64,000 nt of DNA from Sinohyriopsis cumingii (Eukaryota; Mollusca; Bivalvia; Unionida; Unionidae). The translations under genes were made by a program, and so were the position numbers. The notes below the pieces were generated by a model that worked only from the letters and a program-made list of their open reading frames with translations, did not search any database and was not told where the DNA came from. The DNA is taken from assembly GCA_028554795.2 (NCBI GenBank), contig CM068841.1:26469308-26533307 (forward strand), read 5' to 3'. This document shows positions 13,199 to 42,373 of this stretch, piece by piece (the stretch's first letter is position 1; each line of letters opens with the position of its first letter).

Positions 13199-13199
13199 A

Positions 13200-24903: not shown

Positions 24904-24908
24904 CAGAA
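24904..24908. repeat. Target-site duplication, left (CAGAA)
   Basis: CAGAA immediately before the left TIR, matching CAGAA at 39,994-39,998. Five bases by direct reading; shifting the boundary does not extend it to six. Confidence 0.75.
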
Positions 24909-25147
24909 AGCAGCAGAGGGGGCGAATCCGACATTTTGTCCAATCGTTATTTTGCTTAATTATTACTTTCTGCACTCAACGATCTAGTGTCGTCAGCGCC
25001 TGGTAAAAAAAAAACGACGACGTCGTTGGGGGGTCGACGCGTCGTCATTTGGTTTAATTAACACCTTCTGCGCGCCGATCCTCAGCGTCGTCAGCGTCCG
25101 GTAAGCACAGCGACGACCGCGTCGATGTCATTGCCCCCTCTGCTGCT
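24909..25147. repeat. Left terminal inverted repeat (239 bp)
   Basis: Identical to the reverse complement of 39,755-39,993, including a 10-A run. Similarity continues about 19 bases further inside with one mismatch. CpG-dense compared with the flanks. Each TIR is itself bounded by AGCAGCAGAGGGGGC in inverted orientation and contains two diverged copies of a ~97-bp unit. Confidence 0.97.
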
Positions 25148-25157
25148 AAGTGGTTAT

Positions 25158-26468
25158 TTACAATGATCTTACAAACAGAGTGATCACTAACTCCTCCTCT
25201 TGCAGATCGATTAGGTTATTTGACTGATCGGTGAGTTTAAAATTAATTCTCGTTAAAAACCGATCATGGCATCGCATATAGACCGGATTAATCGGACTCT
25301 CAACGATTAAAAATCCGGGAGGGGCTGTTGGTGAAAACGAATAAAGGATATATCCCTGTTGAGCCTGATTTGATTGCTTGGTATCCACCTGGTAACTCCC
25401 TTCGATAACATCACACACTAGATTGATTGCTATCACTGATGCGATATTTACGTTGTACGGGGCAATATGCCTACCACCATCTCCGTTATCGTGTTTGAGG
25501 ATAGTTGATGGACCGAGAAAATCATTAAGAGAATTTCTTAGTTCTGGCGCGTTGTATCCTGGAAACTTGAAATCGGGTAAATCGGCTTCTGTGATATTAT
25601 ACTCGGTTAGGAATTTTTGTTTATTATCATCGCTGTTAGAGAATATTATCCCGACGATTCGTTTATTGATATATTCCATGTCTGATATAAGTTGATTTAA
25701 CATCTCAACGTGTTTTCGTTCTTTTGTTTCCCGTAGCTGTTCTAGTTGTGATTGGTAAATACGATTAATCTCGGCAAACATATCAGTGATATCATTTAAA
25801 TTAACTGTTAATACGACGATCGATTCAGGGGTTTTGTCATGCTGAAAATACCACTGCATGGCGTCCCTGTCTTGAAATATAAACCTGCTGGGTAATGACG
25901 TGTTTTTCATAATAGACAAATTACCAAGATAAATGGGAAAAATTTTATAATACGATTGCACATTCGTGTGCAAGTCCGCGGGTTTTTCCTTAGGCCATCC
26001 TAGTATGGTTCTTATTGAACTGTTATAAATATCAACCATATACCCCGGTGTGCTTATTTCGATCGTCGATGATAACGTCGGTTCATGAACCGTAATAGCG
26101 ATTTTTGATTCCTTTCCTGTGATCGATTTTATCCTGCGTTGAAATTCTTTATTGATTTGTTCTATTTGGTATGACCCAGTTGGTATTGTAACCTCATTCC
26201 AGTCTGGGGTCCCATCGGGCTTATTTGTCCATGCAAAAACCAGCGAGTTATTAGGTTGTTGTCCGTTAAATGCGTCTGCTCGAATATTAGGCCAACTGTG
26301 ATATACTCGCAATTTTGCCAGCGCTATTTCCTTTACTGGAACCGGCGATGGGAAGTTTACACTGAATTCGGGTTTCGTTGATGTTATCGATATCATATTT
26401 GTTTGTACCGGAGTGGTGTTCTCCACGATCCGCTGAAGTAATTGAGACCCTTCGGGGTTCAGCGACAT
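25158..26468 (-). CDS. Penton-like minor capsid protein
   Basis: 436 residues, ATG at 26,468. N-terminal part: NFPSPVPVKEIALAKLRV, HSWPNI, then IPTGSYQIEQINKEFQRRI, a layout shared by minor capsid (penton) proteins of Polintons, in which a beta-rich domain is followed by PTGxYxIxxIN. The middle is helical with a possible coiled coil (residues about 235-265); the C-terminal half returns to beta-rich sequence (PYNVNIASVIAINLVCDVIEG and FLTRINFKLTD). Role: pentameric vertex protein, inferred from family resemblance and position among capsid genes. It is the gene nearest the left TIR, ending 11 bases inside it, and lies 5 bases downstream of the preceding gene's stop. Confidence 0.7.
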   Translation of the reverse strand: MSLNPEGSQLLQRIVENTTPVQTNMISITSTKPEFSVNFPSPVPVKEIALAKLRVYHSWPNIRADAFNGQQPNNSLVFAWTNKPDGTPDWNEVTIPTGSYQIEQINKEFQRRIKSITGKESKIAITVHEPTLSSTIEISTPGYMVDIYNSSIRTILGWPKEKPADLHTNVQSYYKIFPIYLGNLSIMKNTSLPSRFIFQDRDAMQWYFQHDKTPESIVVLTVNLNDITDMFAEINRIYQSQLEQLRETKERKHVEMLNQLISDMEYINKRIVGIIFSNSDDNKQKFLTEYNITEADLPDFKFPGYNAPELRNSLNDFLGPSTILKHDNGDGGRHIAPYNVNIASVIAINLVCDVIEGSYQVDTKQSNQAQQGYILYSFSPTAPPGFLIVESPINPVYMRCHDRFLTRINFKLTDQSNNLIDLQEEELVITLFVRSL

Positions 26469-26473
26469 TATTA

Positions 26474-27010
26474 TTATTCGTTGTCTTTAGTGTCTAATTT
26501 CAACAACCAGGTGGTTCCGGCTTCCAGTTGAAAATCCTCGATTTTTGACATCGCGGAGCTATACAACTGGACCATCGTGGAGAATTCAACATCGGATACG
26601 AACAAATTATCAATCGATAACGAGATCAACCCGGATAATTTCGAGTACGCGTCGGATACTATTTGATGTTTTACTGTATACTCGTTGAGTTTTTTCTGAA
26701 AACACGATGATATCTTCCTAGTGATTGCGTTGGCGACTCCAGCAATTGTTGTCATCGCGGAGATAGCGATTGGAACAGCGATCGGGGTTATCGTGGTCAC
26801 CGTGGATAAAATAACACCGGCGCCAGCTACTATACCCGATACCGAGTACACGACCGCGTCGATGGCGGTTATTTTTCTGCGGTATTTTTTTATTTTTGCA
26901 CGGTATTGTTCGGAAAGCGTTTTCAAATTCGCGGAAAATTCTTTTGCGGTATCGAATCGATATTGATGTGACGTCGGTGATACCTCTGATTCAATTTCCT
27001 TGGTGGTCAT
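26474..27010 (-). CDS. Membrane protein with hydrophobic hairpin
   Basis: 178 residues, ATG at 27,010. A basic helical N-terminal region (KIKKYRRKITAID) is followed by about 55 hydrophobic residues rich in Ala, Ile, Thr and Val (VVYSVSGIVAGAGVILSTV then PIAVPIAISAMTTIAGV) that fit two membrane segments with a short turn. The C-terminal half is helical and includes KISSCFQKKLNEYTVKHQIV and a DVEFSTMVQLY line. Proteins of this layout recur next to capsid genes in metazoan Polintons; the role is unknown, perhaps a virion membrane or membrane-remodelling protein. It lies between fiber-like and penton-like genes. Confidence 0.55.
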   Translation of the reverse strand: MTTKEIESEVSPTSHQYRFDTAKEFSANLKTLSEQYRAKIKKYRRKITAIDAVVYSVSGIVAGAGVILSTVTTITPIAVPIAISAMTTIAGVANAITRKISSCFQKKLNEYTVKHQIVSDAYSKLSGLISLSIDNLFVSDVEFSTMVQLYSSAMSKIEDFQLEAGTTWLLKLDTKDNE

Positions 27011-27035
27011 TTTTATTTTAAAAGAGCTAGTGTTT

Positions 27036-28010
27036 TTAATTACTTAGATTCGCTACAAATTCCACATACCATGTAATGTCTGCCCTAAATATATTGCTAT
27101 CAACGGTCTTAATCACAAACCGTTCAGTTGCGTCCTTGTCTATAATTGTTGATATTGTATTGTTAAACCCGGATGAACTCGACGATGATATACTAAACTT
27201 CGTATTTGAAATCAATGTCAATCGATAAATACCCTTAACAGTTGCGGTGATATATACTGTATTCTGTGTAGGAGTCCAATCGAATGATCCATGCTGAATT
27301 GTGTATACTGTGTTGATGATATTCTCATGAGAGATTTTTATTCTTTCGGATTGATCTGTTTTCAATAGTGATTGTCTAAACGCTTCAGCAATAATTTTGA
27401 TTTTTTCTATTTCCTGTCCATACGCAGTGATATCATTTATAGTTATTGTGATTTCATCCGGTTTGATATTTTTTTTACCAAAGAATTTATCAACGGCGCT
27501 ATCAATCTTGTTAACATTTTTTCGTAACGAGGATAAATTGGCCGACAGTATCGTAAACTCCAAAATAGTATTCTTTATTGTTGTAATATTTGGTTCGGTT
27601 ACCGGCGGGGTCCCGAAAAAACTAGCGGTAGTGAGCTGTATATCGGTGATAGATTTTTTCACCTGCGCGTCAAGTTCGGTCACCGATTTATCCAACCTTG
27701 TAAAACCGTCTCGGATTAATGTTATCGTCGATAGATGTTCACCCGGTTTGAGTCGTCCGTCGCTGGTATACAGCGCGATAGTGTCCTCGGCGGCATCACG
27801 CTGTCGTATTAAAACGTCATTCAGTGACACATTACTGGATTTCAATTTACCCTGGCGGTCTTGAAATACAACTATTTCGCCCGGGTCAACACTGGTTAAA
27901 TTCAACGTATCAGCGATTTCATCCTCAATTAGTTTTTTTATGTCATCGGTGGCGGGCGTTTCCGTGGGTTTTTTCAGCGCCGAAACCGGTCGTCCCCAAA
28001 TATCAATCAT
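27036..28010 (-). CDS. Candidate fiber/spike protein
   Basis: 324 residues, ATG at 28,010 preceded by TTTACAATAATA. The N-terminus MIDIWGRPVS fits the M-x-D-x-x-GR opening seen in fiber-like proteins of metazoan Polintons, thought to anchor in the capsid. Residues about 85-235 are helical with heptad-like spacing (coiled-coil stalk). The last ~90 residues are beta-strand-rich (TVYITATVKGIYRLTLISNT, a Ser run, then RADITWYVEFVANL), as expected of a compact receptor-binding head. Trimeric fiber function is inferred from this three-part layout and from its place between protease and penton-like genes. A tail-like structural protein is the alternative. Confidence 0.5.
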   Translation of the reverse strand: MIDIWGRPVSALKKPTETPATDDIKKLIEDEIADTLNLTSVDPGEIVVFQDRQGKLKSSNVSLNDVLIRQRDAAEDTIALYTSDGRLKPGEHLSTITLIRDGFTRLDKSVTELDAQVKKSITDIQLTTASFFGTPPVTEPNITTIKNTILEFTILSANLSSLRKNVNKIDSAVDKFFGKKNIKPDEITITINDITAYGQEIEKIKIIAEAFRQSLLKTDQSERIKISHENIINTVYTIQHGSFDWTPTQNTVYITATVKGIYRLTLISNTKFSISSSSSSGFNNTISTIIDKDATERFVIKTVDSNIFRADITWYVEFVANLSN

Positions 28011-28485
28011 TATTATTGTAAATGTTATTCTCTAAAATCCGTTGAGCTTCTACGACCCCACTAGTATATTCGTTTACAACCATATGAGGTGGTTTTCGCG
28101 ATGATGAAATCGCCGCAAGTACGTTCAATACCTCACGGCCACATATCGGTGGGTCGCTTAATCGCTGTGTTGGCAGCGTGGAATAAAAAACCCGGGCTGA
28201 ACACGCCCGGGCTGAACACGCCCGGGCTGAACACGCCCCGACATACCGCATGAACTCTTTCGGCGGGGCTAACCCGTATGAATCAAAATAGACGATCGCA
28301 CGCGGATCAATCGCGTATGCAACCCAATGAGTTCCCGCTCCGGAGGACCCATCGAGGTTAATTATGCCGGTTTCAATATTCCTTGGTGCCGCCGGTAATT
28401 GATCCCTCATAAAAACACCTCTGAAGTTTTTTATCGCTAGCGCGTTTGCGGCGTCTATTAAATCAAAATTAGACATGGGAGTCAT
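28003..28485 (-). CDS. Adenain-type cysteine protease (Polinton PRO)
   Basis: 160 residues from the ATG at 28,485, which overlaps the stop of the preceding gene (TAATG); a start 9 bases further in is also possible. Ulp1/adenain family maturation protease. Visible catalytic residues: His in GTHWVAY, Asp in YFDSYG, Gln in TQRLSD and Cys in ICGREV. An in-frame 15-bp tandem repeat (28,190-28,240) inserts ACSAR three times between the FDSYG strand and the active-site Gln. The catalytic set is intact, so the protease is likely active, cutting virion precursors at Gly-Gly sites. Confidence 0.85.
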   Translation of the reverse strand: MTPMSNFDLIDAANALAIKNFRGVFMRDQLPAAPRNIETGIINLDGSSGAGTHWVAYAIDPRAIVYFDSYGLAPPKEFMRYVGACSARACSARACSARVFYSTLPTQRLSDPPICGREVLNVLAAISSSRKPPHMVVNEYTSGVVEAQRILENNIYNNND

Positions 28486-28958
28486 TAAACGGTTCCCGGT
28501 AGTCTTAGACCCTTTCCCGAATACCATGAATACGGGGTTCCCGGTAGTCTTAGACCCTTTCCGGCCACGGGTCGTTTTTTTTTGTAGCCTTTCGCGGTTG
28601 CCTTCTTCAATGCCATTCCCGCCGCGGTACCAACGGCTCCTAACGCCGCCGCCTTAGCCACTGCTGGTGCGGCCGCGGCAATTAATGCCGGAATCGCGGC
28701 TAACAGCGGAAATATCCCACCGGTCTTTTCCATGTTTTTAATTGCTGCGGCTGAAAAATCTATTTGAACACCCTTTTTATTCTTCATCGCATCATTGAAA
28801 TGTTTTATTTGACGCGCCGTCAACGATATCTTATGATTACCACCTGCCATCTGTGACGGCTTCAGCGTTATTGTGGTTCCGCATTGTTTAGCCGACTTTG
28901 ATCGTAATTTCTTGACTTGACCATCAGTCAACTCTACACTGACGACACTATACGACAT
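28485..28958 (-). CDS. Virion membrane-active/minor capsid protein with LT-x-Q repeats
   Basis: 157 residues, ATG at 28,958 preceded by TTTACAATAAA. Two similar N-terminal segments (VELTDGQVKKLRSK and SLTARQIKHFNDAMKNKKG) lead to a GGIFPLL start of a long Ala-rich hydrophobic stretch (residues about 82-120), then a basic tail with GKGLRLPGT twice. The layout (LT-x-Q repeats, GG then hydrophobic helix, GKGL-x-L tail) is a recurrent Polinton virion protein. The GG before the hydrophobic helix is a plausible protease site that would release a membrane-active peptide. The tail repeat comes from a 45-bp duplication at 28,491-28,562. Confidence 0.6.
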   Translation of the reverse strand: MSYSVVSVELTDGQVKKLRSKSAKQCGTTITLKPSQMAGGNHKISLTARQIKHFNDAMKNKKGVQIDFSAAAIKNMEKTGGIFPLLAAIPALIAAAAPAVAKAAALGAVGTAAGMALKKATAKGYKKKRPVAGKGLRLPGTPYSWYSGKGLRLPGTV

Positions 28959-28986
28959 TTTATTGTAAACGCGTTTATGCTTTCAA

Positions 28987-30429
28987 TTACATGTTTTCCA
29001 CTGGCGCATCAACGATTCTCATTCGTCCACCAACACCTTCTAGCAGCATTGATTTATCGCTGAGAATGACAGCAACCGCTCTATAATTGGCACCAGCCGG
29101 GGCTATACGAGCTCGGAAGTGTATATCAACGACGGATTGTCTCGTTAAATCAAGATGTTCCAGCGAAAAATAATAAATCGGATACAGGTTTTTAAAATCA
29201 AGTTGTGATATTTGCAAACCAGTGTCGACGTTTTGATCACGACCCATATACGACAGCAATCGATGGTACACACGTGCGATATGGTTGTCGCCGTAATTAA
29301 GCTGTATATCCTCGGATGGTTCCTGTTGTCCGTTTATTCTCAGCGAAACCTCCATGACTCCTAATCGATCAAATATCATATGGCTGCGTTCTTGACTGCC
29401 CAATCGTTCCCTATTCTGTAGCGCTATGAATATATGACGCGGGGCTGAAACACCCTGTTTTGATGCTAGGTGCCATGTAAACGTATCGGCGACGTTATCC
29501 TCTTTAGCATCAGTTGTTACCGTTAGCCAACTCAACAGCGATTTCCCTCCCTGTTCCATAAATGCTAACAATCGTGCTTCCGTGGTAACTGATGGAGTCA
29601 GCACCGGCATCCACAATGCCATTTTAGTTAAAATGACTTTACCGGCAGCGACGCCAGCAGCATGCCATATTGCATTGTTATCATCGCCCCTTCGCGTCAG
29701 CGCGATTGTATGCTTAGCCCCATAGACAACTTTTCTAACATTTCTGCAGAATCCAAATATGTGATGGAGTGGAATCGCGCATGAAAACTGTCGGCGTGGT
29801 CCTTGTAACATTCCTACTCGTGCTGCGAATCCTAGATTGTAATCATTGTTGGTGCTTTTTATAATATTGAAATTAGCGCCTGGTCTTGCTCTGCGGTCTG
29901 GATTGGCTGCTTCAGCCTGTGGGTCAACTGCGGTATCTCTTTCCACCAGCACGTTAATGTACTGAATATGATCAGCGTTATCGGTGGAGTCCTTTGCGAA
30001 CATTATAGATGGGCCCGCCGATCTTGTATAATCATCCGAGTATCTCGCCAACCCAATTATCGTCGTTGCAACATCAACCTCGCGTTCTATTGATTCAATT
30101 TCTCGCCCGTCAATAAGATATCTAGCGCTCTCAAATAACGCCATGATACCGTTGTTGACGAAGCCAACTCGAACACGATGGTCATCTGCGTATGGTGCAT
30201 TATCGGCGGCATTTGTCACGAGTTCTCCCTCAATTTCGATAAACGCTTCACACGGCAGAAAGTATTTACTGGTATCTTGGACCTGAAGTTCAATTCGCGA
30301 TCGTAGGTCGGGTTGCGCTGCATAATAAGAATAATATTGATAATCACGGACAGAATCATCCCTGCGCACTGGGGCATCCATATCAAACGCGGGATCAGCG
30401 GTACGCGCAAACATTCTATTATTTATCAT
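28987..30429 (-). CDS. Major capsid protein (double jelly-roll)
   Basis: 480 residues, ATG at 30,429. The N-terminus has DYQYYSYYAAQPDLRSRIELQVQDTSKYFLP in pieces, EAFIEIEGEL, then NNGIMALFESARYLIDGREIESIEREVDVATTI, which matches the pattern of major capsid proteins of one large Polinton lineage (I-x-I-x-QD...YL-x-IEG-L; NN-x-x-xLF-x-x-RY-x-NG-x-EI). Later segments include LHHIFGFCRNVRKVVYGAKH and a C-terminal LDLTRQSVVDIHFR. It forms the hexameric capsid shell. The sequence is clearly a different lineage from the capsid fragment at 12,351-12,821. The frame is intact, and the gene lies between pVI-like and membrane-active protein genes. Confidence 0.8.
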   Translation of the reverse strand: MINNRMFARTADPAFDMDAPVRRDDSVRDYQYYSYYAAQPDLRSRIELQVQDTSKYFLPCEAFIEIEGELVTNAADNAPYADDHRVRVGFVNNGIMALFESARYLIDGREIESIEREVDVATTIIGLARYSDDYTRSAGPSIMFAKDSTDNADHIQYINVLVERDTAVDPQAEAANPDRRARPGANFNIIKSTNNDYNLGFAARVGMLQGPRRQFSCAIPLHHIFGFCRNVRKVVYGAKHTIALTRRGDDNNAIWHAAGVAAGKVILTKMALWMPVLTPSVTTEARLLAFMEQGGKSLLSWLTVTTDAKEDNVADTFTWHLASKQGVSAPRHIFIALQNRERLGSQERSHMIFDRLGVMEVSLRINGQQEPSEDIQLNYGDNHIARVYHRLLSYMGRDQNVDTGLQISQLDFKNLYPIYYFSLEHLDLTRQSVVDIHFRARIAPAGANYRAVAVILSDKSMLLEGVGGRMRIVDAPVENM

Positions 30430-30439
30430 GTTGATGTTT

Positions 30440-30937
30440 TCAATTGCGATTTTTTCGTCGTAAATTCTTTGAATTTAAACCACTCCCCGCTATCGCGTTC
30501 ATGAGCGCGTTGGTTGCCGCATCGGCGGATGGCGAAGTCGTCGCCAACGACTGAGTCGTCGCCAACGACTCTAATTTTTCTTCCACGGCGTTATTTATTA
30601 CTTTACTGACATTTGCAGGCATCACTGTCGTTGATGGCATTACCGGTGGTTTCTGTTTTTTTCTCCTGAATTTCACCAATGACATTAGTTTGTCCCGCGC
30701 GGCTGAAAACGCCCTTCCGGCAACATCTCCAATAGCACTAATACCTTTATCACGAATAACATCAATAGCCTTCATTCCTAATTGTTTGGCTAACGGCGCT
30801 ACTTTTGGAGCCATTCTTGTAAATAACCCCGCAATGGTGCTACCGAGACCATCTCCATAGTACGCACGGTAAACAGGCAATCGCGAGTTTACCACGTAGA
30901 CGAGTACTGGTTTATCGTGGTTGTAGTGTATGATCAT
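30440..30937 (-). CDS. pVI/pX-like minor virion protein
   Basis: 165 residues from the ATG at 30,937 (the open frame extends 5 codons upstream without an ATG). Starts hydrophilic, then YYGDGLGSTIAGLFTRMAPK and amphipathic helices, a basic stretch (KFRRKKQKPP, about residues 91-100), and an Ala/Thr/Ser-rich tail ending RRKNRN. GxGLG followed by amphipathic helices is typical of Polinton and adenovirus pVI/pX-type cement or membrane-lytic proteins. A small duplication in the tail repeats SLATT. Directly upstream of the capsid gene, 10 bases apart. Confidence 0.6.
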   Translation of the reverse strand: MIIHYNHDKPVLVYVVNSRLPVYRAYYGDGLGSTIAGLFTRMAPKVAPLAKQLGMKAIDVIRDKGISAIGDVAGRAFSAARDKLMSLVKFRRKKQKPPVMPSTTVMPANVSKVINNAVEEKLESLATTQSLATTSPSADAATNALMNAIAGSGLNSKNLRRKNRN

Positions 30938-30963
30938 CCTTATTAAAAACACCAGTTTTCCAA

Positions 30964-31905
30964 TTAATCATCCACGAGTTCGTCTATGAGCGTTCGATAT
31001 GCATTAATGTCCATAATACCGCCTGCAAATAACCGCTTGCAAATATCAGCGGCCTCATTGATTATTTCCGGAGAGTTATTTCCGGCTCGTTTTCCTCCGA
31101 TTAGTACTTCCAGCCGTGATATATCACTGAGAACACTATTAGGACAGGTAACGCCGTAGGATTCTTTACCAACAGAGTATCCTTTTCCTTTTTTTGGTGT
31201 TATACTCTTAACTTCCTTGTGGAATGCGTCGTAATCGGATTTACTACGATGTGGTAATGCATCTTTATGTTTACTCGCTAAATACACTATTCTTGCCCAG
31301 TCCTTTAACGACTTTATATTTTTCTCGTAACCGCTATTGATATGCTTCTTATCTCGTATGCTCTTAGCAAAATTGTTGGCAGCAAAATTAATTAATTCTT
31401 CCCTGTTGCTGAAGCCTCTAATTTCATCTATTGTGCTCTTCTTGAGTACAATACGGGGTATATTCCCCTCTTTTTCTTCCGGTATTTCTTCTTCTGGTGT
31501 TTCTTCGGGTATTTCTTCTTCTGGTTCTTTCGCAGTAGCACCTAATTCTTCCTCGTCGGCCATTGTAACATAAGGTTCTTGTGGTTCGGTTATAGCGAGT
31601 GGTGGTGGCCTCCGTGTTGTAGCAGCCGCTATTTTTGCAGGGAGTGTTTCTAAAGACCTTTTTGTTTGTTCGGTCTGAGCCGCTATCTTTTCAAGCGCAC
31701 CAAGAACGGGTACAGTTGCCGCCGTAACATCCTTAGTCGCTTTAGTTACCGGGGCAAATAACTGTTCGCTTCCAACAGTAAAATCAGTTTGCATTTGTTG
31801 TCGCGTTTGAAGTTTCTCTCTCACCCTGTCTCGTAACGGTATAAACTTTCTAAGCGCTGCTAGCCGCTCTCTGGCTAGCCGAGTAGTAAGTGATTCACCT
31901 ACCAT
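30964..31905 (-). CDS. Helical scaffold-like virion protein
   Basis: 313 residues, ATG at 31,905 directly preceded by TTTACAATA. N-terminal ~110 residues are helical and basic with coiled-coil character (LARERLAALRKFIPLRDRVR). Residues about 120-145 are a Glu/Pro repeat. The C-terminal ~140 residues form a globular domain (GFSNREELINFAANNFAKSI; EVLIGGKRAGNNSPEI; GGIMDINAYRTLIDEL). The last block (LGG-x-x-AGN-S-E-x-xNE) recurs in Polinton structural proteins. Likely a scaffold or core protein; function inferred from layout only. Confidence 0.45.
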   Translation of the reverse strand: MVGESLTTRLARERLAALRKFIPLRDRVREKLQTRQQMQTDFTVGSEQLFAPVTKATKDVTAATVPVLGALEKIAAQTEQTKRSLETLPAKIAAATTRRPPPLAITEPQEPYVTMADEEELGATAKEPEEEIPEETPEEEIPEEKEGNIPRIVLKKSTIDEIRGFSNREELINFAANNFAKSIRDKKHINSGYEKNIKSLKDWARIVYLASKHKDALPHRSKSDYDAFHKEVKSITPKKGKGYSVGKESYGVTCPNSVLSDISRLEVLIGGKRAGNNSPEIINEAADICKRLFAGGIMDINAYRTLIDELVDD

Positions 31906-31929
31906 TATTGTAAATTGATCCGCAATTTT

Positions 31930-32310
31930 CTAATTTTCCGCCGAGTGTACCATCGGGGGCTCCACGGAGTTTTCGTCTATAATCCTTCTAATGTTTTTGA
32001 TCTTACTAGAAATCTCCCGGCGTCGTTCATAAACACGTCCGAGTTTTTTTCGTATTATTTCAACGGCAGTAAATAGTCCAATGAATGCATTTGCGTCATT
32101 GTGGTACAGGTTCTCATTAATCGTATGTTGTAATCGTTTTATAAAAAAATACTCGCGGGCCAGGGTAAAACGCCCCCGTTTCGACTGTTCGTTAATAATC
32201 TCATAATCGGATAATATTTTTTCACTGTCGAGACCATCAGATAATTCAATTCCTTGATTTTTTAATTTTGAAATCTCAGTTAATATATTATTGATGTCTT
32301 CGATATTCAT
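31930..32310 (-). CDS. Small helical protein, first gene of the leftward cluster
   Basis: 126 residues from the ATG at 32,310 (the open frame runs 11 codons further upstream without ATG). Mostly charged helix: IEDINNILTEISKLKNQG, then REYFFIKRLQHTINENLY and RKKLGRVYERRREISSKIKN. No recognised family. It sits at the promoter-proximal end of the capsid gene cluster, 24 bases before the scaffold-like gene. Could be a virion component or regulator. Confidence 0.45.
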   Translation of the reverse strand: MNIEDINNILTEISKLKNQGIELSDGLDSEKILSDYEIINEQSKRGRFTLAREYFFIKRLQHTINENLYHNDANAFIGLFTAVEIIRKKLGRVYERRREISSKIKNIRRIIDENSVEPPMVHSAEN

Positions 32311-32433
32311 TATTCTTATAAAACATCTTATTTCTAATATCAAAAATTTTAATAAAATTTAAGTTAAAATTTAATAAAATTTAAGTTAAAATTTAATAAA
32401 ATTATTGGGGCCATTTTTGACCCCGTTTTTTGT

Positions 32434-32549
32434 ATGGACAGTACAATGCCGTAGATCTCCACTCGAGTGTTGTGGCAGATTGCAGGCATACATGGACAGT
32501 ACAATGCCGTAGATCTCCACTCGAGTGTTGTGGCAGATTACAGGCATAT
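32434..32549. repeat. 58-bp tandem duplication
   Basis: Two copies differing at very few positions, starting ATGGACAGTACAATGCCGTA at 32,434 and 32,492. Each contains the palindrome CACTCGAGTG. Confidence 0.9.
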
Positions 32550-32554
32550 ACATA

Positions 32555-32690
32555 TACTTAATTAAGGACATTCACATCTTGGAACCCCAAAGCATACATC
32601 TCCGGGAGGGAGGCCTAGGGTGACAAACGTCATCGTAGACCGCCCAGAAGATATGCTTGGGGGACATCACTACATGTACTTAATTAAGGA
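32555..32690. repeat. Hairpin flanked by 14-bp direct repeats
   Basis: TACTTAATTAAGGA at 32,555-32,568 and again at 32,677-32,690. Between them an imperfect inverted repeat pairs CCCCAAAGCATA with its counterpart ending TATGCTTGGGG. This could be a small inserted hairpin element or a functional iteron-like structure. Confidence 0.55.
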
Positions 32691-32775
32691 TGAATATATT
32701 TACAATGAAATGATTGATGGATGATGGGACGGCACAAGACAGCACAAACATAAAACGGCGGGGCGGAACTCTACG

Positions 32776-32893
32776 GCCAATTCAACCAATCAAAAGCAAC
32801 CCAATTAAATTAACCCGGTTGCATGATTGTGAACAAAAGACAACCACACGCCCGGGTCAAGAGCGTGGGTTAGTTTTGATTAGTTGAATTGGC
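32776..32893. repeat. 28-bp imperfect inverted repeat with 62-bp spacer
   Basis: Left arm 32,776-32,803, right arm 32,866-32,893, three mismatches by my count. The right arm runs into the perfect palindrome GGCTTTCGAAAGCC (32,891-32,904). CCAAT motifs lie in the left arm. Confidence 0.7.
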
Positions 32894-32925
32894 TTTCGAA
32901 AGCCCCAGGCTTATAACGAGTCATC

Positions 32926-32937
32926 TTGTATATAAAG
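32926..32937 (+). promoter_or_regulatory. TATA box
   Basis: TGTATATAAAGT on the plus strand downstream of the CCAAT-bearing inverted repeat. No frame starts soon after it. An AATAAA lies about 120 bases downstream, so any transcript would be short and non-coding unless it reads through. Confidence 0.35.
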
Positions 32938-33175
32938 TGACTAATACAGCGGCGTCAGTCACAAGGTGTGTGTTAATTTGAATTCCCTTGAATCGTTTGA
33001 ATCCTTAAATACTTATTAATGGTGTTTCACGGCATTTAAATGAAACCAAATACTCAAATAAAACATTAAAAAAAAGAATACAGCTGTTAGATAATAGCGT
33101 GTATTTCATTAGTTTTCATCGTAAAATGATTAATTAATCGCAACATTAATTGGACTTCAAGGGACGTAACTCTTG

Positions 33176-33703
33176 TCATGCGACGCTATCACAAAACGAG
33201 TTATCTCCCTTTGATGTTATATATGAAAATCGAATTCTGTGACCCGTCTTTTTTGAGATCGCTGTTTTAGTTATATTCTCCGCAACATCTAAAACTGATT
33301 TACTACAAATATCGAAGTATTTACCAGCCGCATTCATAGAGCGAAATATTTTTTCCTCGTGCGTTATTGTATCAAATGACTTTACGGGTTTTGCCTTTCT
33401 CATCCCTCCTGTTTTTCCAAATTTGGAATTTTGACTCGGTGTAACAGCTCTTAGATTACACAGTCTGTTATTTTGAGGACATCCATCAATGTGATCAATA
33501 ACGAGACCGTCGTTGATCAGTCCGTTAAACGCTTCATACACCATCCTGTGAATAAGACAGATTTTTTTCCCAGCATTAAATCGCAAGTATCCGTGATTAT
33601 TTACGGTACCAACCGGCTTCTTCAGTCTGCGGTTTCTAACAATACCGTCGCGAGATGCCTCGTAATTAACAAACACAGGGTGAGGTCTGAACTCTTGGTC
33701 CAT
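33176..33703 (-). CDS. Free-standing HNH endonuclease (NUMOD-type, homing-like)
   Basis: 175 residues, ATG at 33,703. An N-terminal NUMOD4-like segment (NYEASRDGIVRNRR) is followed by the HNH core: LIHRMVYEAF, VIDHIDGCPQNN, LCNLRAVTPSQNS, with His and Asn ligands in the usual places. A NUMOD1/IENR1-like DNA-binding tail follows (FRSMNAAGKYFDICSKSV). This order is typical of phage and giant-virus homing endonucleases. Its start is 14 bases from the stop of the zinc-protein gene. It may be a selfish passenger or may have been co-opted by the element. A second, different HNH domain is fused to the polymerase. Confidence 0.8.
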   Translation of the reverse strand: MDQEFRPHPVFVNYEASRDGIVRNRRLKKPVGTVNNHGYLRFNAGKKICLIHRMVYEAFNGLINDGLVIDHIDGCPQNNRLCNLRAVTPSQNSKFGKTGGMRKAKPVKSFDTITHEEKIFRSMNAAGKYFDICSKSVLDVAENITKTAISKKTGHRIRFSYITSKGDNSFCDSVA

Positions 33704-33716
33704 TTGTATAATAATA

Positions 33717-34040
33717 CTACTTGTCTAATTTATTATTTGGTTTAATTATGAATCTTTCAACGTAGTCTTGGGGGGTTTTGATGACGAAGTCGGCGGTGGG
33801 GTTGATGACGGCGTTTTTAATTCGCTTGTCATAATAGCGTTTTAGTTCCCTGTATCGCTTTCCGCCACAATTGATACACAACTGTGATTTTCCTCTTACA
33901 CCGACGTGGCAAACCAAGCACGGGAGGGGGCCAAGAGAACCATTACGAACGCTTTGTAAATGATACCCGCAGAATTCACCTCTACATGATTTATTGCACG
34001 GGGTTGTCGACCCAATCATCAACCATTTGCAGTGATTCAT
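33717..34040 (-). CDS. Cysteine-rich zinc protein
   Basis: 107 residues from the ATG at 34,040 (another in-frame ATG at 34,058). Cys/His pattern: NHCKW, CNKSCRGEFCGYH, PCLVC, LCINC, consistent with at least two zinc sites in the first ~65 residues, then a basic helix and tail. Short Cys-rich proteins starting M-N-x-CKW recur in Polinton-type elements, with unknown role. Divergent from the polymerase gene with about 40 bases between starts. Confidence 0.55.
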   Translation of the reverse strand: MNHCKWLMIGSTTPCNKSCRGEFCGYHLQSVRNGSLGPLPCLVCHVGVRGKSQLCINCGGKRYRELKRYYDKRIKNAVINPTADFVIKTPQDYVERFIIKPNNKLDK

Positions 34041-34079
34041 TATACTATATTCTTTCATTTAAATACTTGTTTTAATTAT

Positions 34080-37000
34080 ATGGATGAGTTCGAGAGATTG
34101 GCAGCAATTAAACCCCGGAAAAATATTAGGTTTAATCTCGATAGAGTCCTCAAGGACACACCAAAAGCGTTAATAAACGATAAAACCCTGTTGAGTAAAA
34201 TACGCGATTGTATCAATGAATTCAAGCGTGATGGCGCATCTCACAGTTGGTCAACATTTCGAATTGATGGCATTGTTGATGCTACCATGAACGACAACCG
34301 CGCAGCAATGATAATATCACAACTTGACGGTAAAAGGTATTTCTTCAGAGTAAAATTCATTGTCCGGGTGGAATCAGGCGATTGGATCATGCGTGATAAA
34401 TTTGAACCAGTTCTCAGCGACAAGAAAACAGTCACTGTCAGCCGCGACTCCAAGCCGGGGTTGTTAACCGGAATTGACAAACCATACTATGAACGAGCGT
34501 ATCCTGAAACAGCAGTTGTTTATGGAATATACCCGTTAAATAAGAAACCTGATATCGGAAAACTGAAACCGATGAAACAGTCAACTGGGATAAATTGTGT
34601 AGCAGAACGAATAATAGAGCATTTTACAAATGCGTGTCGAGGAAACAAATTGACTGATTTACGTCGTAGCAAAATCAACCAGTGGGAACTAACCGTAAAA
34701 GAGCGTGGAGCGACCATCAGCGACATAGCGAGATTAGAAACATCGCTGAGATTTCCAATAACCGTTACAACGATAACCGGTGAAGTATTATACGAATCGA
34801 AGTATAAATCGAATGGAGCCCCAATCAAAATTATTGATCATAACGAACACGCATGGACGCCCGTGATCACAATATTTCCACGGGATAGAACAGTAAAGTA
34901 TATACCCGAAGAATTCCTGGGAGAACAATTCTCCAAGGACGGTTTTCTCGCGGAGAGGAAACTATTTGATGCTATTGCCTACTTGTGTAAAAACGACCCT
35001 GTATCAGTGTGGTTACTTCGCAGCGCTGAAAACGATGCGGATACCTTTGATCAGTTTGTAAGACCAAACGGTGAATTATATCGCACTGAAGCATTTCACA
35101 ACAGGATGAAAAAAACCGCCATGGAATTTGAAGAGCATGATGAACAACTGCTAACAAATTGTTTTACGATTCCATCGGTTGTAGCTCATGTTGCAGCAAG
35201 GAAAAATGCGTGGAGACCAACGCGCAAGGAATTTCTACCGGATGTACAATCCAGTTGTTTGGAATACTATCACGGTGGACTATGGAACACTGAATACAAC
35301 CGCGACGCTATGATCTCGGTTGATATGGTTGCCTGTTATCCAGCGAGTTTTCTCGGGTATGGATCCGCCGCTGAGTACTTTAGACGATTTGGACACCCCA
35401 GTCATGAAATGACTCGTGTTGCTATTAATGGACCACTGCCTGATTTTGATTTAACCGGATTCGCTCGCATAGTATCATTTGAATTCGCGGCAGGACTCCA
35501 TCGCTGTTGCTATATTTGGATCGGTAGACACATGGCTGAAAAGAGATGGCTGCCAATAGCGCTGCTACGGTATATGATTGATTGTAGCATGCTAGTTTCG
35601 TTGATTGTCAGTGACGCGATTATATCATACCGGGCACAGACTGAAGTCTGGTTACCAGAACCGGAGCGTCTAGATAGCATAATTGACGAGTCCAGAAAAA
35701 ACATTGATGCCGACGAGGAATATATCATCGAATGGTCCAGGAGGATATTTAACCAACGAAACCGCGAGGCAAAAGATCTCGGTAGAAGAATAATTGGTAA
35801 GTTCACACAAGGTGGAAAAAACCACGACTACAAACGATATTGCTCACGGCTGATTATAGATGACGCAGAATATGATTTCGTAATCAAGGACACAGTGGCA
35901 AAAAATAGATACGTGAACTGCAAAACAGCTTTCTTGTCCAATGGAACGAGGTTGGGTACAGTTGTTACCTACAGCGATGGAGACAGCCCGGCGTATCCAC
36001 ATTTGAGGGCGTCTATGCTGGGATATGCCGCTATCAATTTATTCTCGATGATAAATAGATTTCCCGATACCGCGGTTAGAGTAGCCGTTGATTCGTTTTA
36101 TGTTGACGTAGCGTATAAGGAAAACGTAGCCGAGTTTACTAGTCCGGACGAGAGTTGGGGTACATGGAGAATTAAAAATGAAATACGACGCGATTATTCC
36201 CCGTCAGCAGATGTCACCGTTGAGAACAACTATTTACGCGGTGATAAATTGTCAGAATGGTCTAATGCACCATCGTGTTCTGATCCAATTTGTAGACACA
36301 AGACGGTTTATTTAAGCGGCTGTGGCGGGTCAGGAAAGACGACTCGGGCAATTGAATTATTTCGAACGCGGGCAAGTATAATCGTGCTTACACCGACCCA
36401 TAGACTAGCGCGAGAGATAAAACAACGAAATGTTGACGCCGTTACTTATCACAGCTTTTTTCGATACAGCGGCGGTGAGTGGACTCCTGATCGAATGGGT
36501 GAAAAATTTATTCCCGACATTATCATCTGGGATGAGATATGTACTGTTTCGTTAGATACTTTACAAATGTTTCTTGAGTGGTTGCTGCGCGCGAATACAG
36601 CGGTAATTATGTGTGGGGACCATGGCCAACCACCACCATTTGTCGGCGAGGGTCCACATGATTGGTTAAGGGGTTTTGTGGACTATTATGAAGAAACCGA
36701 TACTGATTACCGAGCACTTGATGAACAACTGCGCGAGGTTAAGAAATTAATCAGATTACAGCCGGATAGAATTCAATGTGAAATAATTCGCGAGGTGATT
36801 CCGGAAACGCCGTTAAATGAATTCTGGGAAACATGGAGACCAAACGATTTGATTGTAGCGAGTAGAAAGATAGTCAGAGACACACTTCAGCGGAAGTTGT
36901 TTACGTTGCATAAGGAAAAGTTTCCAACGCGTCCAGTGCCGTTATGTTATAGACCCGCGGACACACGGCGGCAGAACATTGAAGTTGAAATTCCAGGCCG

Positions 37001-37559
37001 GACAGAAAAACAAATTCTCGTGCTGAATGATATCGTGCTCGTTGATATCAGCGTCGTCGAGGACGCGCTACGTGCTGATAAATCCCCGTGGACGCTAGGA
37101 TACGCAACAACAATACATTCCTCGCAGGGACTAACCATCACGGACACAATTGTTTGGATAGTTGATAATCGCATCGAATGGTCGAATCTAGTCTATCTTG
37201 CAGTGTCCAGAGTACGAAGGATAAATCAGCTTCGAAGAATTGTTATTGACGAAGCCACCGACGAAGCCGGCGACAAAGTCACCATCGATGCAAGCGTCAT
37301 TGATAGAAAACTCTCGGGTTACCGCCAACAGGATAAAAAAAAACAGCGGTGTTTTGATATTGATGCCGAATTAATAATCTCGCTACGACAACAACAGAAT
37401 AATCACTGCGCGAGTTGCAATTGTATAATGAGTTGGCGTTATTCGGATAAAGACACTCGCCAATTTACCGTGGATAGGATCGATAACAGTCTCGGTCATG
37501 TCAAAAACAATGTGAGGTTGACCTGTCTTGAGTGTAATAGACGCAACGGCGCTAGTTAA
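34080..37559 (+). CDS. PolB palm - SF1 helicase - HNH fusion replication protein
   Basis: 1,159 residues from the first ATG (34,080). Residues 1-390: no recognisable 3'-5' exonuclease motifs. YHGG at 397-400, palm motif A VDMVACYP with Asp415, motif B region GRRIIGKFTQGG (568-579) and motif C RVAVDSFY with Asp671; the first Asp of the usual DTD is replaced. Residues ~740-1055 are an SF1 Pif1/RecD-like helicase: Walker A GCGGSGKT (747-754), Walker B WDE (817-819), GDHGQPPP (846-853), TIHSSQG (1011-1017), AVSRVRR (1041-1047). Residues ~1109-1159 are an HNH domain (HCASC, DRID, CLECN). It should replicate the element. The stop overlaps that of the convergent integrase gene by 8 bases. A fossil relative lies at 13,980-15,545. 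Confidence 0.85.
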   Translation: MDEFERLAAIKPRKNIRFNLDRVLKDTPKALINDKTLLSKIRDCINEFKRDGASHSWSTFRIDGIVDATMNDNRAAMIISQLDGKRYFFRVKFIVRVESGDWIMRDKFEPVLSDKKTVTVSRDSKPGLLTGIDKPYYERAYPETAVVYGIYPLNKKPDIGKLKPMKQSTGINCVAERIIEHFTNACRGNKLTDLRRSKINQWELTVKERGATISDIARLETSLRFPITVTTITGEVLYESKYKSNGAPIKIIDHNEHAWTPVITIFPRDRTVKYIPEEFLGEQFSKDGFLAERKLFDAIAYLCKNDPVSVWLLRSAENDADTFDQFVRPNGELYRTEAFHNRMKKTAMEFEEHDEQLLTNCFTIPSVVAHVAARKNAWRPTRKEFLPDVQSSCLEYYHGGLWNTEYNRDAMISVDMVACYPASFLGYGSAAEYFRRFGHPSHEMTRVAINGPLPDFDLTGFARIVSFEFAAGLHRCCYIWIGRHMAEKRWLPIALLRYMIDCSMLVSLIVSDAIISYRAQTEVWLPEPERLDSIIDESRKNIDADEEYIIEWSRRIFNQRNREAKDLGRRIIGKFTQGGKNHDYKRYCSRLIIDDAEYDFVIKDTVAKNRYVNCKTAFLSNGTRLGTVVTYSDGDSPAYPHLRASMLGYAAINLFSMINRFPDTAVRVAVDSFYVDVAYKENVAEFTSPDESWGTWRIKNEIRRDYSPSADVTVENNYLRGDKLSEWSNAPSCSDPICRHKTVYLSGCGGSGKTTRAIELFRTRASIIVLTPTHRLAREIKQRNVDAVTYHSFFRYSGGEWTPDRMGEKFIPDIIIWDEICTVSLDTLQMFLEWLLRANTAVIMCGDHGQPPPFVGEGPHDWLRGFVDYYEETDTDYRALDEQLREVKKLIRLQPDRIQCEIIREVIPETPLNEFWETWRPNDLIVASRKIVRDTLQRKLFTLHKEKFPTRPVPLCYRPADTRRQNIEVEIPGRTEKQILVLNDIVLVDISVVEDALRADKSPWTLGYATTIHSSQGLTITDTIVWIVDNRIEWSNLVYLAVSRVRRINQLRRIVIDEATDEAGDKVTIDASVIDRKLSGYRQQDKKKQRCFDIDAELIISLRQQQNNHCASCNCIMSWRYSDKDTRQFTVDRIDNSLGHVKNNVRLTCLECNRRNGAS

Positions 37560-38496
37560 GACCACGCGGGGGTAATTGAGTATCGTTAGGTATCACTTGT
37601 AGTTGCTCGCGTGTAAATCCGCGCTGAGGAGCAGTTGAATCCAGTCTATAGATCGGTGGTCTACCAGTTGATCGTGTTATCGTTGATATGTTATGTGTGG
37701 TAACACTCCAAATAGGATCGGTAGCCCTTTTTTTACCGCCTTCAAGCTCTCCTGGTTCATATAGATATCTAACAGTGACATCGCCAAGAATCGGCTTAGA
37801 AACGCTATTTATTTTTAATTTTCCGGGTATATACTCGTATTTAATCGCGTCGCTGGGCTTCATGTTGATTACTCGGGTAATCTCGTTATTTAACGCTGAA
37901 ATTACACCTGGCAACCTTTTAACCCATTCACGAGATCGTTTTTCTTGGATGAATTCCTTCGCGTATTGATATCCAAATAACCGTTCAGCGAGAGTCCGAT
38001 TGAATCGTTCAACAATTGCCTGATCACGATGTAGCGCAGTATGACCTCGTCGTATCGCGACGCTATGATGTTTCAGCGTTGATAAAACAGCGCCGCGAAA
38101 TTCACTACCAGGATCAACTTGTAATAGATTTGGCCAGCGCAGAGGACCTCTTCGATAAATCCGCTCAAACGCATCGGCTACTTCAGTTGCTGACTTTGTT
38201 TTCAACGGTTCCGCTTGTTTGTATCGACTCGCAACATCAACTACGGTTAGCGCGTATTTGTAACCGTTGTCATGCGGCAGAAATAGTATATCAGCCTGAT
38301 GAACTTCATTAGGTACGCTGACATCAAAGCGCGAGAAGTTGATTTGTTTAGGCGGTGGTAGATAAATTTGCCATATAGCCTGTTTGGATAACCAATTAGC
38401 CGCAGTGGTCTTTGTTACCTTTGCAGCGCTTGCAAGCTTACCAATTGCGGCCTTCCCCTTCCAGTATCCTCTCGGAGAATAATAGATGGAATCCAT
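37552..38496 (-). CDS. RVE-family integrase (Polinton type)
   Basis: 314 residues from the ATG at 38,496. N-terminal helical domain opens DSIYYSPRGYWKGKAAIGKL, the usual Polinton integrase start. The RNase-H-like core shows Asp in HQADILFL, Asp in QVDPGSEF and Glu in AIVERF, with 34 residues between the last two. The C-terminal SH3-like part ends with PIYRLDS and GFTREQLQVIP. It inserts the element by strand transfer; the 5-bp target duplication and AG...CT ends are its expected products. Intact. Divergent in sequence from the decayed integrase at 9.4-10.5 kb. Confidence 0.92.
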   Translation of the reverse strand: MDSIYYSPRGYWKGKAAIGKLASAAKVTKTTAANWLSKQAIWQIYLPPPKQINFSRFDVSVPNEVHQADILFLPHDNGYKYALTVVDVASRYKQAEPLKTKSATEVADAFERIYRRGPLRWPNLLQVDPGSEFRGAVLSTLKHHSVAIRRGHTALHRDQAIVERFNRTLAERLFGYQYAKEFIQEKRSREWVKRLPGVISALNNEITRVINMKPSDAIKYEYIPGKLKINSVSKPILGDVTVRYLYEPGELEGGKKRATDPIWSVTTHNISTITRSTGRPPIYRLDSTAPQRGFTREQLQVIPNDTQLPPRGLN

Positions 38497-38518
38497 TGTT
38501 TTTCTTGGATGATTGTTA

Positions 38519-38881
38519 TTAATTACCAGCACCAATCATTAATTTACCTTTCATAGCCGATTTTACCAACCATGAGGCCAATTTTTCTTTGACGGATTTA
38601 TCAGGAATAGCATTTAGCGCGTGAATTAATTTTACATCCGCGATATGACGCTGTTGCAGATCGCTACTTTTGTAAGCAACATCATGAGCATGACACGCCT
38701 TATCGATAGCGTTTATTGGATACTCACCGGGTTTGGGCTGATTTTGATCATCGAGTCTAATATCTAATCGTGTTCCGGGGCCACAGTAGTTATATCCTGG
38801 GAGGTGTTTTTCTCCTGGATACTTTGCCCACGGTGTTCCGGGGAGTTTTGCCAATTTGGCTGCGATGTCACCTCCTCGCTT
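38519..38881 (-). CDS. Parvovirus-type phospholipase A2 frame, no ATG before its catalytic motifs
   Basis: Open frame with the secreted-PLA2 signature found in parvovirus VP1: calcium loop YCGPGT and active-site ACHAHDVAY, with the His-Asp pair and a following Tyr. Such domains help incoming particles breach endosomal membranes. There is no ATG upstream of these motifs in this frame; the first Met is near the C-terminus. The frame is entered by a -1 shift at the A8 run (38,880-38,887) that ends the DUF5679 frame upstream, so it is probably made as a DUF5679-PLA2 fusion. The alternative is a one-base sequencing or assembly error in the homopolymer. Ends 22 bases before the integrase start. Confidence 0.8.
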   Translation of the reverse strand, partial: KRGGDIAAKLAKLPGTPWAKYPGEKHLPGYNYCGPGTRLDIRLDDQNQPKPGEYPINAIDKACHAHDVAYKSSDLQQRHIADVKLIHALNAIPDKSVKEKLASWLVKSAMKGKLMIGAGN

Positions 38882-39042
38882 TTTTTTAAAACATCTCCGG
38901 GTCTAATAGAAATAAATCTAAATTTCTTTGTACCGCATTGTACACACTTGCCAGTAAGGGCCGATCTGTTATTTCTTGTCGTAACGGTTGTCATATCGTT
39001 TGTGCCAGTACGTACTCTACACTTCACACAATATAGATCCAT
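38764..39042 (-). CDS. DUF5679-type zinc ribbon, zero frame of the PLA2 locus
   Basis: 92 residues, ATG at 39,042. The first ~45 residues match the DUF5679 pattern: YCVKCR, a Thr-rich strand, NNRSALTGKCVQCGTKKFRFI, with two C-x2-C zinc pairs. This domain is seen fused ahead of PLA2 or virion proteins in adinto- and adoma-type viruses. After residue 53 the frame runs over the PLA2 coding region and the remaining ~39 residues look like non-natural sequence. The boundary is an A AAA AAA slippery heptamer in the zero frame. The product made without shifting would be the zinc ribbon plus a short tail. Its start is 5 bases from the divergent ATPase ORF. Confidence 0.75.
   Translation of the reverse strand: MDLYCVKCRVRTGTNDMTTVTTRNNRSALTGKCVQCGTKKFRFISIRPGDVLKKSEEVTSQPNWQNSPEHRGQSIQEKNTSQDITTVAPEHD
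38880..38887 (-). promoter_or_regulatory. Candidate -1 programmed frameshift site
   Basis: Eight A residues on the minus strand, read TTA AAA AAA AGC in the DUF5679 frame, so the heptamer A AAA AAA is in the correct phase for -1 slippage. Slipping there enters the PLA2 frame exactly. A downstream stimulatory structure was not assessed. Confidence 0.65.
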
Positions 39043-39047
39043 AATTT

Positions 39048-39722
39048 ATGTATAGAGATATGAATATAATTGATTTTTCGGCGACTAAAACAAGAGAACC
39101 AGTTAAGCATGTTGCAGCGTTACCAAACTCGATCCGGATGATTATCATCGGACCATCTGGATCCGGCAAGACGCAATTGTTACTCAATTTAATAATGAGA
39201 TGGATGAAGTGGGATAAGTTGTATTTGGTTGCTCCTAGCGTAGATGATCAACGATGCTACGAGGTGTTGAAAGATTTCAACGAGAATGCATCAGCGATCG
39301 CTAAAAAAAATGTTATTGAGTTTATTACGGATATCAATGATGCACCAGGTATTGATGATATTGATGGCGACGTTAACAATCTAGTCGTGTACGATGATGT
39401 TATGTTAGACAATCAAAAAAACCCAGCTAGGATATTTTCCAGAGGCAGGCATAAAAACACTGACGTGATATATGTCACTCAACGATACACTCAGATTCCA
39501 AAAGTAATCAGAGATAACTGCAATATTCTTGCTGTATTCAACGGCGTTGATACACACACGCTACGAAATATTTGGCAGACATGGTGCGGCGGTGACATGG
39601 ACTTTAATGTTTTTCGAAACTTTTTTAGTCATGCTCAGTCGACCCCACATGGATTCATAACGATAAATTTACATGATCCTCGGACACGATATCGTATCGG
39701 ACTTGACCAAATATTCGGTTAG
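39048..39722 (+). CDS. A32-like genome-packaging ATPase
   Basis: 224 residues if started at 39,048; a second in-frame ATG at 39,060 gives 220 and opens MNIIDFSA. Walker A GPSGSGKT (near residue 35), Walker B region NNLVVYDDVM (near residue 110), then RGRHKNTDVIYVTQ, the conserved sensor stretch, and a C-terminal HGFITINLHD. FtsK/HerA-superfamily motor that loads DNA into capsids. Intact. The divergent start of the DUF5679 gene is only 5-17 bases away, so the promoters must overlap coding sequence. It ends 32 bases before the right TIR. Confidence 0.92.
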   Translation: MYRDMNIIDFSATKTREPVKHVAALPNSIRMIIIGPSGSGKTQLLLNLIMRWMKWDKLYLVAPSVDDQRCYEVLKDFNENASAIAKKNVIEFITDINDAPGIDDIDGDVNNLVVYDDVMLDNQKNPARIFSRGRHKNTDVIYVTQRYTQIPKVIRDNCNILAVFNGVDTHTLRNIWQTWCGGDMDFNVFRNFFSHAQSTPHGFITINLHDPRTRYRIGLDQIFG

Positions 39723-39754
39723 TTGTAAATAATTTTCATTGTAAATAACCTCTT

Positions 39755-39993
39755 AGCAGCAGAGGGGGCAATGACATCGACGCGGTCGTCGCTGTGCTTA
39801 CCGGACGCTGACGACGCTGAGGATCGGCGCGCAGAAGGTGTTAATTAAACCAAATGACGACGCGTCGACCCCCCAACGACGTCGTCGTTTTTTTTTTACC
39901 AGGCGCTGACGACACTAGATCGTTGAGTGCAGAAAGTAATAATTAAGCAAAATAACGATTGGACAAAATGTCGGATTCGCCCCCTCTGCTGCT
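39755..39993. repeat. Right terminal inverted repeat (239 bp)
   Basis: Exact reverse complement of 24,909-25,147. Confidence 0.97.
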
Positions 39994-39998
39994 CAGAA
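39994..39998. repeat. Target-site duplication, right (CAGAA)
   Basis: Matches 24,904-24,908. The pre-insertion site would have read GCACAGAATGCTAC. Confidence 0.75.
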
Positions 39999-40270: not shown

Positions 40271-40689
40271 ATAAAATACCAAGATGCAAACATTTGTTTG
40301 CAGTGAAAGTATTTTCATGAAAAAAATTGATGACAAAAATGATGGAAGCAAGTTTCCCATAAGGCACATATTGTCTTACTGGCATTATACAATACCAGTA
40401 AACACTGCTCCTCTAATGCTGTTTTGTAACACTACCAGGATACTTTCTGAAAAAACTGGTTTTGTTGTTATAAATAATAAATATTGATAAATGCTGACAG
40501 TTGTGGTAGATTGGAGCAACAAAAATACTCTTGAAGTAATTATTAAGAATAAATATATTAATGTTAAAAGCCTGGAGAGAATAACAGATCTATAAGACAA
40601 ACTAGAAAAAAACAGGTAATTATAGATAACCAGTAACATATATTGTATTTAAGCTATATCAAACGAATGGGCAATTATTTAAAGACTTG

Positions 40690-41645: not shown

Positions 41646-42059
41646 TGATTCAGACCACTAATTATTTTCTATAGATAACAATGTTTACATTTTAAAAAAT
41701 AAAAGTATTTTGTGCACTAAATGACCCAGTACACAAAATATAATTCATGAAATTTTTTCTGAACAAACAAAATATGTGGAGCAGCATTTTCTTGAGAAAA
41801 ATGTCCTTAAAACAGCATACCAGTAAATGCTCTTTAAGTCATCCGTTTGGTAAAAAAAATATCAAAATCATGTACGTGTGCCAACAGAATTTATATAGAA
41901 GTTGAAAACACTGACAAAAGTCTCAGAAAATTAAAACAAGGAAAATTTCATGCTGATATTACAGCCAATGGCCCCAGCTCTGAGTATTAAGTACAGTATT
42001 CAATGCTGTGCCACTTTGAGACTGGTACCCTGCCTGATTAATAATTAATGATCTGATTC

Positions 42060-42345
42060 CTATATTGGATTCTCACTCCATATAGATTTGACATTGTTAT
42101 CTTACTCCTTGTAGGTTTTATACTGGTCCCTTCACTCCATGTAGGTTTTACACTGGTCCCTCACTCCTTATAGGTTTTACATTTTTGCCTCACACCCGTA
42201 TAGTTTTTACATTGATCTCCTCACTCCAGGTAGGTTTTATGTTGATCCCTCACTCTATGTAGGTTTACATTGGCACCTCACTCCATGTAGGTTTGACTCC
42301 AGTCCCTCATTCCTTTTAGGTTTTACTTTGGTCCCTCACCATAAA
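42060..42345. repeat. Minisatellite related to the 41-kb array
   Basis: Units such as CACTGGTCCCTCACTCCATG followed by TAGGTTTTA, about nine diverged copies of ~30 bp. Confidence 0.8.
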
Positions 42346-42373
42346 ACCTTTTTATACTGCTGCAGACTGAAGG

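Follow-up and report, generated by a model that had tools for sequence, protein, structure and literature searches.

The gene at positions 34080 to 37559 of the 64,000-nucleotide stretch of contig CM068841.1 analysed here (the window) is an intact, conserved, all-in-one DNA replication gene of a 15-kb virus-like mobile element. With considerable confidence, its product is assigned to the pPolB-S1H kind and read as the protein that replicates an intact polinton-like virus or transposon, inserted apparently not long ago; in this protein an alpha/beta domain, an OTU-like protease, a protein-primed family-B palm, a superfamily 1B (SF1B) helicase and an HNH nuclease follow one another. The frame, the shared conservation, the element ends and the gene content were read directly, and the domains were assigned from sequence and predicted structure; all activities discussed below are inferred from them.

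The polymerase-helicase fusion type is already known, and the present protein closely matches the one described for polinton-like viruses in PMC11071308. What is new is a probable mollusc host, the occurrence of relatives under sea-slug and mycorrhizal-fungus names, and an HNH domain whose divergence tracks that of the palm. In the texts consulted, pPolB-S1H proteins belong to viruses of protists and to parasites of giant viruses; an intact copy in probable mollusc DNA, with relatives under sea-slug and fungal names, would widen their host range.

Domain organization and integrity of the fusion gene

The gene and its domains are arranged as follows.

34080..37559 (+), pPolB-S1H-HNH replication protein, 1159 amino acids, one uninterrupted frame
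34080..34538 (+), residues 1–153, alpha/beta domain by predicted secondary structure, at the terminal-protein position
34539..34871 (+), residues 154–264, OTU-like cysteine-protease domain with Cys173 and His257
34872..35279 (+), residues 265–400, expected exonuclease region, without a conserved D-x-E
35280..36218 (+), residues 401–713, family-B polymerase palm with motif A Asp415, motif B 565–578 and motif C Asp671
36282..37253 (+), residues 735–1058, SF1B (Pif1/RecD2-like) helicase
37311..37553 (+), residues 1078–1158, HNH/endonuclease VII-like nuclease with two CxxC pairs

An earlier note on this DNA had placed a polymerase palm, an SF1 helicase and an HNH nuclease in one replication protein, which is borne out by the open frame, the domains and the relatives. 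As a whole, its interpretation stood in part: the domain content and the lack of a conserved exonuclease triad hold, the absence of a named family with this order is not supported, and the nick-primed replication that it considered is not favoured. It had missed the OTU-like domain before the palm (about residues 154–264) and the position of the gene inside an intact 15,085-bp element. The frame is also open from a possible upstream start, a GTG at 34032. For residues 1–153 an alpha/beta domain is predicted, but no convincing PDB match to the fold was found.

A protein search with the query gave 55 relatives, of which 29, located on other contigs, cover at least 90% of the fusion protein. This indicates that the fusion frame results neither from chance nor from misassembly, and a chance frame or chimaera was rejected on this ground. 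An assembly artefact or a set of fused pseudogenes is thus given almost no weight, since the open frame and the intact element ends stand against it as well.

Polymerase palm and exonuclease region

Conservation was examined after aligning the query with its 55 relatives, and each count gives the sequences with a residue at that position. Asp415 of motif A is kept in 53 of 53 aligned sequences and Asp671 of motif C in 55 of 55; where motif C normally has its first Asp, Ala stands in 55 of 55. Ile572, Lys574 and Gly578 of motif B are each found in 55 of 55. The positions of both Asp residues and the single-Asp motif C, as previously proposed, were confirmed.

The structural matches listed for the predicted model are mostly helicases, and the protein-primed phi29 polymerase is the only DNA polymerase among them. 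The phi29 match starts at residue 267, and therefore an inactive exonuclease remnant may be present within residues 265–400. A D-x-E column is conserved nowhere in the exonuclease region; the best one reaches 22 of 32 sequences, and the query has His at that Asp. The lack of 3'-5' exonuclease motifs noted before holds, at the sequence level, as the lack of a conserved triad. When PDB sequences were searched with the family profile, helicases and no polymerase were found; the HNH region matched PacI with E = 0.24 and a Cas9 with E = 0.53, both at chance level. The palm, the OTU-like region and the HNH domain are all unrecognised by Pfam at its cut-offs.

Helicase and C-terminal HNH nuclease

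In the alignment blocks, conservation is high for helicase motifs I, II, III, V and VI, apart from a few broken rows, and Pfam AAA_19 matches the helicase with E = 1.2e-11. The Pif1/RecD-type SF1 motifs seen earlier are supported by both results. NCBIfam returned only helicase and relaxase-helicase models for the fusion protein, its matches in phage records are restricted to the helicase, and its best viral model match is H6WBE3.

The HNH region matches endonuclease VII in PHROGs with E = 8.3e-10, and three more endonuclease or HNH families match it, down to 2.4e-4. The endonuclease VII family, phrog_1035, was matched by the query and four of the five other members scanned, including a Diversispora protein; the member without this match is P0060. 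A protein search from the divergent member P0039 gave 83 proteins, P0039 included. A profile of the helicase C-terminus was matched by 60 of 84 proteins (query included), and an HNH profile by 53 of these 60, where both profiles were built from one alignment (A1), whose members match by construction. Among the seven without an HNH match, four end at most 22 residues past the helicase stretch and two, P0083 and P0084, at most three; the tail of the seventh, P0060, resembles a divergent HNH, with a Pfam HNH match under the cut-off (E = 0.013). P0083 and P0084 share 26% and 25% identity with P0039 across 92% of the part used for the search, and keep the OTU Cys/His, the single-Asp palm and the helicase without the HNH domain, ending three residues past the helicase stretch.

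Pairwise distances were compared in 39 of the 56 aligned sequences, namely those filled in the palm, helicase and HNH regions. The HNH distances follow the palm distances with r = 0.78 (0 of 2000 Mantel permutations as high), and the palm distances follow the helicase distances with r = 0.89 (39 sequences). The tracking of the palm by the HNH domain points to long co-inheritance and argues against a recent mobile passenger; a role of the HNH domain as a working part of replication or end-processing is therefore plausible. The residue following the conserved Asp of the HNH core is Arg in 46 of 46 sequences. As a catalytic His is usual at this position, the HNH chemistry may, judging from the sequence, be of an unusual type.

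Comparison with known systems

In PMC11071308, the Tlr1-like helicases are described as pPolB-S1H fusions of polinton-like viruses, the Tetrahymena Tlr1 element and transpovirons. They are said to begin with variable domains, followed by a vOTU that has Cys and His, then a palm of the protein-primed type and an SF1 helicase; the palm lacks the first Asp of motif C, the exonuclease is lost, and different members carry a C-terminal GIY-YIG or HNH domain (PMC11071308). The fusion protein shows five of these features: a family-B palm with motifs A–C and without the first motif C Asp, an SF1 helicase that follows the palm on the same chain, no functional 3'-5' exonuclease as judged by sequence, a vOTU-type cysteine protease that has its Cys and His and lies ahead of the palm, and an HNH nuclease at the C-terminus (PHROGs E = 8.3e-10). 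It fits the pPolB-S1H ('Tlr1-like helicase') kind, as matched to the published description rather than to the sequences of named members, and the order for which the earlier note knew no named family is thus a published one (PMC11071308). The Tlr1 element also has an rve integrase, as the present element does (PMC11071308). Unlike the named members, which in the passages of PMC11071308 consulted come from a ciliate, from an alga and from parasites of giant viruses, the present gene lies in probable mollusc DNA, and its HNH domain diverges in step with the palm.

OmPLV, a polinton-like virus of the dinoflagellate Oxyrrhis marina, likewise encodes an SF1 helicase and a pPolB as a single protein, Helicase SF1-pPolB (PMC12721341). 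However, its helicase is N-terminal and its exonuclease is complete, whereas the helicase here lies after the palm and no conserved exonuclease triad is present; the OmPLV-type order was therefore rejected (PMC12721341).

Canonical Polinton, Maverick and adintovirus pPolB proteins likewise have a protein-primed palm with upstream domains, and the rve integrase, A32-like ATPase, double jelly-roll capsid protein and inverted repeats of these elements are common to the present one. Canonical Polinton pPolB has an exonuclease and no fused helicase, unlike the fusion protein (PMC11071308). Its TP-vOTU-EXO-PALM organization was rejected because the helicase here is fused behind the palm. The phi29 polymerase comes with an exonuclease and lacks a helicase, and its terminal protein is a separate one. 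Among the titles and abstract openings listed by literature searches of an open library, none announces a pPolB-S1H fusion in an animal, and word searches of PMC11071308, PMC12721341 and PMC4642659 found no mention of molluscs; the word 'animal' occurs three times in PMC11071308.

The integrated element

The fusion gene is part of an element with the following ends and further genes.

24909..39993 (no strand), whole integrated element, 15,085 bp, defined by terminal inverted repeats and flanking CAGAA
24909..25166 (+), left terminal inverted repeat, 258 nt, starting AGCAGCAG, complementary to its right counterpart at 257 of 258 positions
39736..39993 (-), right terminal inverted repeat, pairing with the left repeat with a single mismatch
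24904..24908 (+), CAGAA on the left flank, one half of a 5-bp target-site duplication
39994..39998 (+), CAGAA on the right flank, the other half of this duplication
37552..38535 (-), rve-type integrase (PF00665, E = 5.7e-9)
39048..39722 (+), A32-like packaging ATPase (PF04665, E = 5.1e-12)
28987..30429 (-), double jelly-roll capsid protein (PF21738, E = 2.9e-17; 19 relatives)
28003..28527 (-), weak match to a cysteine protease of adenovirus type, a possible assignment (PF00770, E = 0.0061, Pfam cut-off not reached)
33176..33703 (-), stand-alone HNH_3/NUMOD1 gene resembling homing endonucleases (PF13392, E = 1e-14; PHROGs HNH, E = 2.2e-29)

The hallmarks of polinton-like elements are thus present, with a double jelly-roll major capsid protein, a packaging ATPase, an rve integrase and terminal inverted repeats. 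The near-identical inverted repeats and the open frames suggest a recent insertion of this intact element. Random 5-mer flank matches occur in the window at a rate of 0.0016. The target-site duplication of 5 bp differs from that of canonical Polintons, which is 6 bp. Several further ORFs of the element gave no convincing family match, and no minor capsid protein was matched by Pfam or PHROGs among the ORFs scanned. In 2-kb steps, the GC content of the element is 0.38–0.47, against 0.33–0.35 at 20–24 kb and 0.31–0.34 at 40–44 kb; it is 0.42–0.45, as high as in the element, in the first 12 kb of the window, where older polinton remains lie.

A 57-nt sequence occurs twice (98% identity, 58 nt apart) at 32434–32548, between the listed ORFs of the element. 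Just to its right, repeats of about 29 bp form long arrays (40620–42368), and two short pieces resembling the HNH_3/NUMOD1 gene lie outside it at 47541–47766.

Replication mode and alternative explanations

In the proposed mechanism, the linear genome would be copied from its ends by protein priming, and the palm would extend by strand displacement with the assistance of the fused helicase. The OTU-like protease may free the priming domain from the polypeptide by self-processing. The HNH nuclease may trim, nick or resolve replication intermediates or, less likely, may be a captured homing nuclease. The rve integrase would insert the product and create the 5-bp duplications. As a complete element with near-perfect ends, it offers a test bed for the predicted polymerase activity, the self-release by the protease and the role of the HNH domain.

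A nick-primed replicase, for which the HNH nuclease makes the primer, would account for an HNH domain that is fused and widely kept, in 53 of the 60 proteins with the helicase C-terminus, including sea-slug and fungal entries. This mode, which the earlier note had considered, is not favoured and appears improbable, because the only DNA polymerase among the structural matches listed is a protein-primed one, the element is linear with long terminal inverted repeats, and the upstream OTU-like and alpha/beta domains match the protein-priming relatives described in PMC11071308. Moreover, the distant P0083 and P0084 lack the HNH domain and yet keep the OTU Cys/His, palm and helicase residues. It is also unlikely that the palm is inactive and the protein effectively a helicase-nuclease, with replication left to a host polymerase. 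The Ala in place of the first Asp of DTD in all 55 sequences agrees with such a loss, and inactivation had earlier been proposed by the authors of PMC11071308, as stated there. However, decay should relax Asp415 and Asp671, which are invariant among the aligned residues, and likewise the three motif B residues kept in 55 of 55. PMC11071308 also lists active polymerases with the same Asp loss and argues that activity survives it; by analogy, a single-Asp motif C need not mean an inactive palm.

More weight is given to the view, still doubtful, that the HNH domain is a mere homing nuclease or intein passenger. Such domains are read as intein invasions in PMC11071308, and a second, separate HNH homing-endonuclease-like gene lies next door in the element. 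On the other hand, the query protein ends with the HNH domain and leaves nothing beyond it to splice on (some relatives, e.g., P0016, have a short tail there), its pairwise distances follow those of the palm, and sequences under fungal and sea-slug names retain it. A further-reaching proposal is tentative: the protein may be the one-chain replisome of a recently active mollusc-infecting virus lineage, with the HNH domain as a working replication nuclease, e.g., an endonuclease VII-related resolvase or end-processing enzyme, fixed before the mollusc and fungal element lineages parted.

Relatives and host

The organism-named relatives of the fusion protein are five Elysia sea-slug proteins, one filed under Candidatus Thiodiazotropha and ten of Glomeromycotina, the last filed under the mycorrhizal fungi Diversispora, Cetraspora, Rhizophagus, Gigaspora and Racocetra. 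These names are compatible with contamination. As Candidatus Thiodiazotropha are clam symbionts, the relative filed there may be host DNA. A quick family tree (84 rows), which carried warnings about long branches and residue composition, joins the query clade to the fungal rows where branches are long; this join was not used.

The capsid protein has 19 relatives among 7995 candidates scored. Two of them carry an organism name, in each case that of a freshwater mussel: Sinanodonta woodiana, with 68% identity over 62%, and Potamilus streckersoni, with 47% over 45%. These names suggest a mollusc as the host, probably a bivalve.

Decayed elements elsewhere in the window

A decayed relative of the fusion gene, missed by the earlier note, lies within 14063–15326 as five tblastn pieces, 46–77% identical, within query residues 46–474. 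Ahead of it, at 13217–13402 (-), lies what remains of the same stand-alone HNH_3 gene, in the order and orientation of the intact element.

Remains of a canonical-type polinton occupy 1306–10223 of the window, with a BIR-domain ORF at 3910–4572, an ATPase relative at 6384–6806 and an integrase relative at 9636–10079. In stop-to-stop frames, inspection by eye showed an ORF in which an ExoI-like DFE stretch is followed further on by a YFNTDS stretch. The decayed polinton with a stand-alone polymerase and exonuclease, claimed previously, is supported by this inspection by eye only, and Pfam finds no polymerase in the two longest ORFs. Between the two decayed elements, a minus-strand stop-to-stop frame at 12860–13207 resembles a LINE endonuclease by eye.
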